DNA of 13,123 bases from Armatimonadota bacterium (GTDB taxonomy: Bacteria; Sysuimicrobiota; Sysuimicrobiia; Sysuimicrobiales; JACQTN01). Positions 6,738-9,310 of this stretch are shown here, piece by piece; within the stretch, counting starts at the first letter, position 1, and the number at the start of each line of letters is the position of its first letter. The DNA is taken from the NCBI GenBank assembly GCA_016210785.1, contig JACQTN010000306.1:1-13123 (forward strand), given 5' to 3'. A program made the position numbers and the translations under genes. Below the pieces are notes generated by a model, which saw nothing but the letters and a program-made list of their open reading frames with translations, was not told where the DNA came from and searched no databases.

Positions 6738-8129
6738 ATGTCCATCGACCGTGTGCACCGCCACATCGACGACCACCGCGAAGAGTCTCTCGAAATCCTC
6801 AAGACCCTGATCCGCCAGCCCAGCATCAGCGCCCAGGACAAGGGCGTCAAGGAGTGTGCGCGGCTGCTGGCAGACATCATGCGCAAGTTCGGCATCTCGT
6901 CTGACGTGATCGATACGCCGACGCAGCCGGTGGTGGTCGGCGAGGTCTGTAAGGACCCCAGAGCTTACACGCTGCTGTGCTACGGCCACTACGACGTGCA
7001 ACCGCCGGAGCCACTGGAGCTATGGGAGTCTCCGCCCTTCGAGCCCACGATCCGCAATGGCCGGCTGTACGGCCGCGGCACGGGCGACAACAAAGGGCAG
7101 TTGATCACCCACGTGCTGGCGGCGCGCGCGTGGCTGGAGGCCGCGGGCGGGCCGCCCATCAACCTGAAGTTCGTCTTCGAAGGCGAAGAGGAGTCTGGCT
7201 CGAAGAATCTGGGCAACTTTGTCCGCGAGCACAAGGCGAAGCTCGCCGCCGATCTGGCGTACGTCTCCGACGGCGGCCTGCATCCCAGCGGCCGGCCCAC
7301 CATCTCGCTGGGCAACCGCGGCATCCTGGGCATCACCCTGGTGGCGCAGGGCGCGGACAGAGACAACCACTCGGGCAACAAGGGCGGCGTGGCCCCGAAC
7401 CCCGTCTGGATGCTGGTGCACCTGCTGTCCACCATGGTGCATCCGTCCGGCCGCGTGCTCATCGACGGCTTCTACGACCACGTGCGGCCCATCGGACCGA
7501 CGGAGCAGAAGCTGCTGGCCACCATGGAGTTCGATCCCAAGTCTTTCGCCACCACCATGGGCCTGGAGACGATCCCCATGGACGGCGCCACCTACTGGAA
7601 ACGGATCATGCTGGAGCCCTACTTCAACATCAACGGTTTCATCAGCGGCTACGTGGGCCCGGGCTCCAAGACCATCATCCCGTCCCGCGCGGAGTGTCGC
7701 ATCGATATCCGCCTGGTGGTGGACCAGAAGACGCGGGACATCTTCGAGAAAGTGAAGGCGCACGTGAAGAAGGTGGACCCGCGGGTGCAGGTCCTGGAGC
7801 GCGGCTTCGGCACCATGGAAGCGAGCCGCACCAATGCCGACCATCCCGCGGTGGGGGTGGTGGGCCGGGCCATCAAGGGGGTACGCGGCGTCGAGCCATT
7901 CATCATCCTCTCGGGCGGCGGGAGCCTGCCCAACGCGGTGTGGCCTAATATCCTGGGCGTGGACCACATCGGCGTGCCCTACGCCAACGCCGACGAGAAC
8001 AACCACAGCCCCAACGAGAACCTGAGCGTGGAGCGCTTCTACGACGGCATCCACGTCAGCGCGCAGGTGTTCCAGACGCTGGCGGAGGCCGACACGAAAG
8101 GGGAGCTGCCGCGGCGGTCTACGACGTGA
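6738..8129 (+). CDS. M20-family metallopeptidase (dipeptidase/carnosinase-like)
   Basis: A 463-residue di-zinc hydrolase of the M20 family (carnosinase/DapE/ArgE relatives) that cleaves dipeptides, N-acyl amino acids or similar amide bonds in the cytoplasm. Metal and catalytic residues are in place: H84 and D86 in GHYDVQP, D117 in GRGTGDNKG, the catalytic and ligand pair E151-E152 in EGEEESGS, D178 in VSDGG and the C-terminal ligand H423 in NNHSPNENL. The inserted lid/dimerisation domain (about residues 195-320) carries H211-S-G and closes with RIDIRLV. Length matches the larger CNDP-like branch. The start is ATG 6738, 8 nt after the SD region. It stands alone between a hairpin-rich leader and a structured 3' region. 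Some M20 members are N-carbamoyl-amino-acid hydrolases, which would fit the nearby hydantoinase, but this sequence looks more dipeptidase-like. Confidence 0.95.
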   Translation: MSIDRVHRHIDDHREESLEILKTLIRQPSISAQDKGVKECARLLADIMRKFGISSDVIDTPTQPVVVGEVCKDPRAYTLLCYGHYDVQPPEPLELWESPPFEPTIRNGRLYGRGTGDNKGQLITHVLAARAWLEAAGGPPINLKFVFEGEEESGSKNLGNFVREHKAKLAADLAYVSDGGLHPSGRPTISLGNRGILGITLVAQGADRDNHSGNKGGVAPNPVWMLVHLLSTMVHPSGRVLIDGFYDHVRPIGPTEQKLLATMEFDPKSFATTMGLETIPMDGATYWKRIMLEPYFNINGFISGYVGPGSKTIIPSRAECRIDIRLVVDQKTRDIFEKVKAHVKKVDPRVQVLERGFGTMEASRTNADHPAVGVVGRAIKGVRGVEPFIILSGGGSLPNAVWPNILGVDHIGVPYANADENNHSPNENLSVERFYDGIHVSAQVFQTLAEADTKGELPRRSTT

Positions 8130-8130
8130 G

Positions 8131-8308
8131 GCCGAAGCCTACATCCGGACGGAGCGACTGCGGCCGAGTCGGGCACCCATCTGGGCGAGCCAGAGAAGAG
8201 CGAGGCCTGTCTGAGCCCGCAGGGCGAGTTTGGCCTCGCAACCACAGAAAGCGAGCCCCCGATGGGTTGGCGAGGCCGCCCCGGAGCGGAGCCGGATGTG
8301 GGTGAGGC
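8131..8308 (+). other. Extended nested palindrome, candidate structured RNA or palindromic mobile element
   Basis: The 203-bp gap between the convergent M20 and NicX-like genes folds almost throughout on one axis. Nested arms are: 8131-8133 with 8306-8308; 8137-8148 with 8292-8303 (12 pairs, two G-U); 8160-8165 with 8274-8279; 8168-8171 with 8268-8271 (two G-U); 8175-8181 with 8261-8267; 8183-8186 with 8255-8258; 8189-8190 with 8251-8252; 8200-8207 with 8232-8239; 8215-8218 with 8222-8225 around a GCA loop. Tandem G.A mismatches (GA facing GA) flank arms at 8166-8167/8272-8273, 8187-8188/8253-8254 and 8213-8214/8226-8227. The G-U and G.A positions would be A.C and C.U mismatches on the other strand, so the plus-strand RNA is the more stable form. 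It starts right after the M20 stop. No known RNA family was recognised. Confidence 0.6.
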
Positions 8309-8332
8309 AGCGCTCCACTCTGATGACGCCGT

Positions 8333-9310
8333 TCAGATTCTCAACTGCCCGCCCTCCAGGACGACCCTCCCGTCCAGGCGCAGGGTGGGGCGGTTCATCA
8401 TCCCGTCGAAATGCGCGGCGGCCTTGGTGACGCCGCCCAGGTTGGCGCTGGTACCGATGCCGATGTGCACCGTGCCCATGGCCCCGTGGTCCTGGGCCCA
8501 CACGCCGGTCAGCAGCAGGATGGCCGGGTTGAGACCGATGGCGAGTTGGGCGATGTTGTAGACTGCGGCGTCCCCCATTCCCTCCCACACCCGCCGGATC
8601 ATGCCGGCCTCGTACCCGCCCTCCACCTTCACGATACGGCCGCCCTCCACGGTGCAGATGACGGGGTCGCGCAGGGTGCCACCCAGGCGCAGGTTGGGGA
8701 TGCTGCCGTCGAAGACGATCACGCCCTGCGCGGTGCCGTCCATCGGGGAGACGTTCGCCTCGATGTTGGGGAACGCGCTGAACTTCCCGGGCCGGTCGAG
8801 GATGCAGTCGTGGGCGTTCCCCTTGCGGCCGCGCAGGTCGAAGGTGCAGTCGGTCCCGGCGGGCGTGGTCAGGTGGGCGGTGGTCGCTTCCGTCAGCAGG
8901 CCGGCGACTCTCCGGACCACGGGCGACTGCGCTTCGAAGTCCGCCTCCGCCCCGCCCCGTACGAGTTGATCGGGGGTGGCCGCGGGCAGCGACAGCACCC
9001 GGGTGCCGCTCCCCAGCGCGTTGCGGACCGCCGTGGAGTGGCTGATGGAGTAACTCACCGGGATCAGCGAGACATCCGCGGCCACCAGCGCCGCCGCCAC
9101 CACCTCCGGCGGCTCGCCGCCGTCCACCTCCCGGGGCGTCATGATGGTGGTGACGACCTCCGGGGTGATCTCCAGCGCCGCGACGGCTAGCGCCTCCGCA
9201 ACTTCCATGGTGTCCGTGTCCGCCGCGATCAGCACCTTCTCAGCTTCCCGAACGCGCGCGCATGTGCGCACCACTTTCCTGGCACCGCTCACGACACCGG
9301 CAATCCGCAC
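8333..9310 (-). CDS. M29-like aminopeptidase / NicX-type (2,5-dihydroxypyridine dioxygenase) superfamily protein
   Basis: A 325-residue metal protein of the broad group that holds M29 aminopeptidases and the mononuclear-iron enzyme NicX. The visible metal-site candidates are E184 in PNIEANVSP, H282 in TVHIGIG, and the H300-x-D302 pair in AAAHFDGMM. The H plus HxD arrangement matches the iron ligands of NicX as I recall them and also the end of the M29 site. The second Glu of the di-metal M29 peptidases, usually in an AELGIGLNP-like motif, is Gln here (Q255 in IAQLAIGLNP), which speaks against a standard two-metal peptidase. The GTG start has SD AGGAGG at 7 nt. It is divergent from the TTT cassette across 223 bp, suggesting shared control, and convergent with the M20 gene. 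Pyridine-ring cleavage is only a possibility; no other nicotinate genes are present. Confidence 0.82.
   Translation of the reverse strand: MRIAGVVSGARKVVRTCARVREAEKVLIAADTDTMEVAEALAVAALEITPEVVTTIMTPREVDGGEPPEVVAAALVAADVSLIPVSYSISHSTAVRNALGSGTRVLSLPAATPDQLVRGGAEADFEAQSPVVRRVAGLLTEATTAHLTTPAGTDCTFDLRGRKGNAHDCILDRPGKFSAFPNIEANVSPMDGTAQGVIVFDGSIPNLRLGGTLRDPVICTVEGGRIVKVEGGYEAGMIRRVWEGMGDAAVYNIAQLAIGLNPAILLLTGVWAQDHGAMGTVHIGIGTSANLGGVTKAAAHFDGMMNRPTLRLDGRVVLEGGQLRI

Follow-up and report, generated by a model that had tools for sequence, protein, structure and literature searches.

What is the long palindrome that occupies positions 8131-8308 of the window (the whole 13,123-nt stretch of DNA analyzed here)? 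The sequence-only reading had suggested a structured RNA, either a separate RNA or part of a 3' UTR read with the upstream M20 gene, and had named a palindromic repeat as the main alternative. Our analysis indicates that the palindrome, at approximately 8129-8335, is probably the decayed copy of a DNA element that is genome-specific, MITE-like and non-autonomous and that we designate family A. It lies between two convergent genes, as had been noted before: a Peptidase_M20 gene on the plus strand (6738-8129), whose TGA stop touches the element, and an aminopeptidase-like gene on the minus strand (8333-9310), for which PF26233 was found on homologues and PF02073 remained below the cut-off. Some homologues of the aminopeptidase-like gene were named from NC10/Methylomirabilota, Armatimonadota and Firmicutes/Bacillota. 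Among open reading frames of at least 100 amino acids, the only one listed over the 8131-8308 core was antisense (8139-8588) and extended into the neighboring gene.

Folding of both strands showed that the long palindromic rod is real. The plus strand of 8131-8308 formed a single rod of -97.4 kcal/mol (z -5.10), compared with -75.5 +/- 4.3 kcal/mol for shuffled sequences, and none of 200 composition-matched shuffles folded equally well. The minus strand reached -85.4 kcal/mol with a z of -2.34, and 4 of its 200 shuffles were equally good; the plus strand was thus favored, as had been proposed. The excess is one over composition-matched shuffles, and by raw energy 8131-8308 is not the strongest 178-base fold of this GC-rich window: at least 6 of the 146 stretches of 178 bases taken every 89 bases along its 13,123 nt, with 8131-8308 itself not among them, reached -98 or lower. 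The plus-strand fold contained 56 pairs, rather than the 47-50 claimed earlier. Its other predicted details were recovered, including the outer arm of 12 pairs, exactly four G-U pairs (8137/8303, 8140/8300, 8169/8270 and 8171/8268) and three strict tandem GA/GA mismatches. These mismatches are located at 8156-8157 (partner 8284-8285), 8166-8167 (partner 8272-8273) and 8187-8188 (partner 8253-8254) of the plus strand, and are conserved as GA/GA in 9, 9 and 7, respectively, of the nine aligned copies described below. Beside these sites the rod has two related loops, one GAA/GA and one GGA/GGA, and its apical part (8191-8250, plus strand) consists of a 9/11-base internal loop and an inner hairpin. 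No run of T follows the hairpin on either strand.

Searches of the assembly from which the window comes (3.73 Mb, 616 contigs, 72% complete) revealed that the palindrome is one of many, in agreement with the alternative that had been ranked behind the RNA. Using a 201-base query, blastn gave at least 23 matches, counted as 19 separate places, and this copy number is a lower bound because 40 of the 46 first-look candidates were scored. A covariance model built from six copies gave at least 14 matches at E<=1, with 150 of 1445 candidates scored, and added one new place (C596); at the present locus it matched 8126-8312, around the core hairpin of the repeat (8129-8308, plus strand). Two further short forms, C167 and C410, were reached through the end pattern.

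Outside this genome no comparable family was observed in the phylum genomes searched. Among 43 genomes of the phylum, the own genome included, the covariance model found matches in the own genome only (60 candidates scored per genome, with stricter filters). A blastn search of 41 genomes (the own genome and 40 relatives) gave a single match elsewhere, in G007, inside an open frame of 375 amino acids. The exact end pattern matched three times in the own genome (reversed control, 0) and not at all in the 42 other genomes of the phylum. No match to the element was found by blastn in plasmids and phages, and the exact 24-letter pattern had 0 matches in viral contigs and 12 in 84,980 species genomes, the own genome being left out. 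We read these 12 matches as chance, since seven copies compared by blastn with the genomes concerned gave local matches of 49 bases at most, and the best match was 32 bases around the 24-letter pattern itself. With regard to known RNAs, Rfam gave 0 matches at gathering score over the whole 13,123-nt window, which is consistent with the earlier statement that no known family could be recognized; at E<=10, the four matches in 7900-8600 all lay outside the element and far under their gathering scores. A limited literature search, based on words and not on sequence, found no description of family A.

The better-preserved copies share a common anatomy, that is, one imperfect palindrome of approximately 260 bases in which one or both of the outer arms terminate in CTAG (C567, C84 and C28 are examples). 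CTAG is present at both ends of the short copies C566 and C167, and at one end only in other copies. The outer inverted repeats are CTAGTGCYTGCYTGC-like; in C566, C167, C410, C84 and C212 they are present at both ends and base-pair with one another, and in other copies they are present at one end. C84 measures about 260 bases end to end (264 bases folded) and C212 measures 302 bases including an insert, and in the folds of both the outermost arms pair together. The short forms retain the outer arms and miss much of the core, and L003 and L006 have no clear ends. The 8131-8308 copy has no terminal inverted repeats. Alignment with six other copies allowed us to recognize its decayed right outer arm (8309-8335, plus strand, outer limit approximate), in which ATGACGCC is common with other copies and the terminal CTAG is lost. 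No CTAG ends and no target duplication are visible in this copy, and its extent is therefore given only approximately.

Several copies carry extra repeat blocks, located on the 3' side of the apical internal loop (L007 and L012), near the hairpin tip (L009, L010 and L011) or also in the 5' arm (L008 and L012). One of them, block B, occurs in L005, L008, L010 and L012 and near L009; it had 60 matches in the own genome, often in tandem, and 0 matches in the other 42 genomes of the phylum. Block B is approximately 60-75 bases long, contains GGTGAGCGCGGTAGAGTG-like sequence and is found at L008:1428-1502 (minus strand), C177, C572, C196, C220, C319 and other places. A second block, block C (around CCAAACCAGGGAGCTCCTTG..AACAGACGC), forms several tandem units in L095 (C144), and related sequence was observed inside the family A copies L007 and L012 and also in L098. 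L009, L010 and L011 have an additional palindrome close to the hairpin tip, CCCCAGAAATTC..GAATTTCCGGGG (GAATCTCCGGGG in L011), and palindromes of similar look were seen near L002, L003 and L022.

Family A is a dispersed repeat whose hairpin has been kept through paired changes. In the core alignment of nine copies (A1), standard pairs filled 96.2% of 476 cells (shuffles, 90.1%), and both sides had changed in 13 of 53 pairs (shuffles, 5.0) and in 25 cells (shuffles, 5.9); 0 of 500 shuffles reached any of these three values, which are not probabilities, given that these nine copies also supplied the structure and that relatedness is not preserved in the shuffles. When the partner was shifted by one to three columns, 0-3 two-sided pairs remained. 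Thus, compensatory changes are present, as the covariation check of the RNA proposal had called for, here among paralogues within one genome; they cannot distinguish between RNA, folded DNA and template correction. The 26 private changes at pairs comprised 8 double changes with the pair kept, 8 changes to G-U, 8 that broke the pair and 2 one-sided changes to a Watson-Crick pair. Stem and loop columns had similar identity (85% and 84%, respectively), and with a divergence of about 15% between copies there is no sign of recent movement.

An inner hairpin does not have to be preserved by compensatory change in a transposon copy, which counts against the MITE-like reading, and the paired changes seen within these presumed transposon copies call for an explanation: either selection on the folded strand or template-switch correction. 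Template switching during replication is a mechanism for arm-to-arm change in imperfect palindromes, and could have generated the paired changes in the absence of selection while leaving the MITE-like reading of the element in place. Stem and loop diverge alike and the pairs are nevertheless kept, and the 8 private double changes retain the pair, both of which are expected if one arm is corrected from the other. However, such correction should erase the GA/GA mismatches, whose persistence on one strand speaks against pure template correction, and 8 private changes leave G-U. We consider this origin of the paired changes possible, although not the probable one.

Family A copies sit between genes, often directly 3' of a stop codon, and in both orientations. 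Among the 22 copies examined, 12 had a CTAG end, and in nine of these (L002, L004, L010, L011, L012, L014, L022, L054 and L062) the adjacent gene ended exactly at the TAG of this CTAG, the genes being called by a GC-by-codon-position rule. The three exceptions were L005, L009 and L018. L011 has the CTAG and little end repeat; CTAG sites near L008, L017 and L046 and one internal CTAG in L022 were left out as non-ends. The fetched loci contained 56 CTAG sites in total, of which 22 were at stops, 26 were intergenic and 8 were inside genes. After subtraction of the 17 element sites, 13 of the 39 comparison sites were at stops, compared with 9 of the 12 element ends (Fisher p 0.018; the loci are not a random sample). 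Since CTAG is rare inside genes and the loci are non-random, the placement may largely follow where CTAG sites exist. In addition, CAAGGTTGG-like sequence was observed 3' of CTAG sites at several loci, some of these sites being stop codons, and perhaps represents another CTAG repeat family.

Under the MITE-like reading, a transposase acting in trans would recognize the outer inverted repeats and insert the element at CTAG, with duplication of either TA (IS630/Tc1-mariner-like) or CTAG (IS5-like). The copies with CTAG at both ends, C566 and C167, fit the two duplications equally, and further copies show CTAG at one end only. IS630 reportedly prefers TA in CTAG, judging by the title of a 1991 work of Tenzen and Ohtsubo. 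Because the first base of the element after TA would be G, a copy entering a CTAG stop codon would rebuild TAG without altering the protein, and its tolerance at stops would thereby be explained; the CTAG-at-stop placement would then be a case of an insertion that preserves the host protein. Whatever its orientation, a copy that is read through would give the transcript a strong hairpin at its 3' end, and the family A hairpin may act on mRNA ends. MITE-like insertion at CTAG accounts for the dispersal, the end repeats, the CTAG ends, the mixed orientation, and the truncated and block-bearing copies.

The same distribution is what would be expected of a bidirectional terminator or mRNA 3'-end protector that is maintained by the host, in the manner of REP/BIME use, and spread by recombination rather than by transposition: the copies are intergenic, often right at a stop codon and in both orientations, and their hairpin is maintained. 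On the other hand, the 8131-8308 hairpin is not followed by a T run on either strand, and the short copies carry CTAG-flanked terminal inverted repeats at both ends, which points to transposition. Such a host-maintained function appears unlikely to be what family A represents.

A multicopy, strand-specific structured RNA transcribed in the same direction as the M20 gene, either a 3' UTR element or a small RNA, draws on the asymmetry between strands. The plus strand had the better z in eight of nine copies (all except L008; inserts left out), the GA/GA mismatches are retained at three sites on one strand, and 13 of 53 pairs show paired changes. Mismatch type gave a divided result. When G-U was excluded from the choice of pairs, their union contained 14 G.T and 4 A.C departures, in cells that are not independent, whereas there were three of each where the folds of both strands agree (34 pairs). 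A stronger G-U preference (approximately 13 G-T to 2 A-C cells) was rejected as a biased count, because the fold itself picks G-U pairs. Thus, the strand asymmetry of mismatches is unsettled. At CTAG stops, the gene and the element plus strand had the same direction in four of nine copies (L004, L012, L014 and L054) and opposite directions in five, which makes a strand-specific 3' UTR RNA unlikely. In addition, there is no Rfam match, and the short forms hold the outer arms and lose much of the core. An RNA of this kind is therefore quite improbable, and the original proposal of an RNA read with the M20 gene gives way to that of a dispersed repeat.

What the MITE-like reading leaves unexplained is the persistence of the fold and of the GA pairs on one strand. 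A bacterial mobile element might move or function in single-stranded, folded form (RNA or single-stranded DNA), its rod with tandem sheared G.A pairs being recognized by some mobilizing machinery, and might grow by absorbing other hairpins; the lasting one-strand GA/GA loops and the paired private changes would then be its signature. We regard this as improbable. Transposition of single strands by a Y1 (RAYT or IS200/IS605-type) transposase with the folded plus strand as substrate would fit the plus-strand preference and the lasting GA/GA pairs, but is very unlikely, since no Y1_Tnp was found in the own genome (72% complete) by a search that was positive in 5 of 14 control genomes, and CTAG-ended inverted repeats are not known as ends of that family. 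Likewise, REPINs and RAYT-associated REPs were rejected as an assignment, no RAYT (Y1_Tnp) gene having been found in this 72% complete genome.

Multicopy insertion sequences are often missing from assemblies, and searches of the own genome (616 contigs, 72% complete) revealed no transposase with matching ends. The name MITE-like was chosen because no ends common with an autonomous element were found. Broken-frame remains resembling an IS630-type transposase were observed in L063 (C187) at 1295-2110, where a DDE_3 fragment scored below the cut-off. No family A ends were seen in the surroundings of this fragment, and contig C187 gave no hit in the end-pattern searches; the loose patterns gave fewer matches than the reversed control (13 vs 49 and 43 vs 114), and thus only their best matches mean anything. 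Family A was not classed as an IS630 derivative, given that this one DDE_3 fragment was all that was found in the incomplete assembly and its contig showed no family A ends.

What looked like a candidate new RNA is reinterpreted here as a probable mobile-element family, and family A illustrates that the covariation signal used for the discovery of structured RNAs can also be present in multicopy repeats. If real, the one-strand preference would bear on how some short hairpin elements move with no visible transposase.

Several known systems resemble family A in part. REP/BIME and REPIN are palindromic mosaic repeats between genes, and family A is likewise palindromic, mosaic and intergenic; however, it is far longer and no Y1 transposase was found with it. 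Correia/NEMIS and ERIC elements have TA ends, as family A does, and hairpin transcripts able to affect neighboring mRNA, as those of family A may do (PMC2229807, PMC10969869), although they occur in different organisms and the likeness is one of description. QMITE2 is approximately 190 bp long, lies mostly in 3' untranslated regions and has REP-like truncated copies; family A shares with it a location in 3' UTRs, a strong hairpin and the existence of truncated copies that lack ends, whereas the direct repeats of QMITE2 are 7-9 bp and family A has CTAG ends (PMC10969869). The element described in PMC3189936 is small, non-autonomous and targeted to CTAG, as family A probably is, but the inverted-repeat sequences in its table are, by eye, dissimilar to those of family A. 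For MITEPsy1, a 4-bp CTAG duplication is reported. Finally, PMC2229807 describes RUP of Streptococcus pneumoniae as a 107-bp element thought to be moved by IS630-Spn1 into a TA target. Unlike RUP, family A is approximately 260 bases when complete, GC-rich and without a matching autonomous element found; like RUP, it is short, non-coding and intergenic, with terminal inverted repeats and a presumed TA at the target, and its transcript would form a long stem-loop (PMC2229807).
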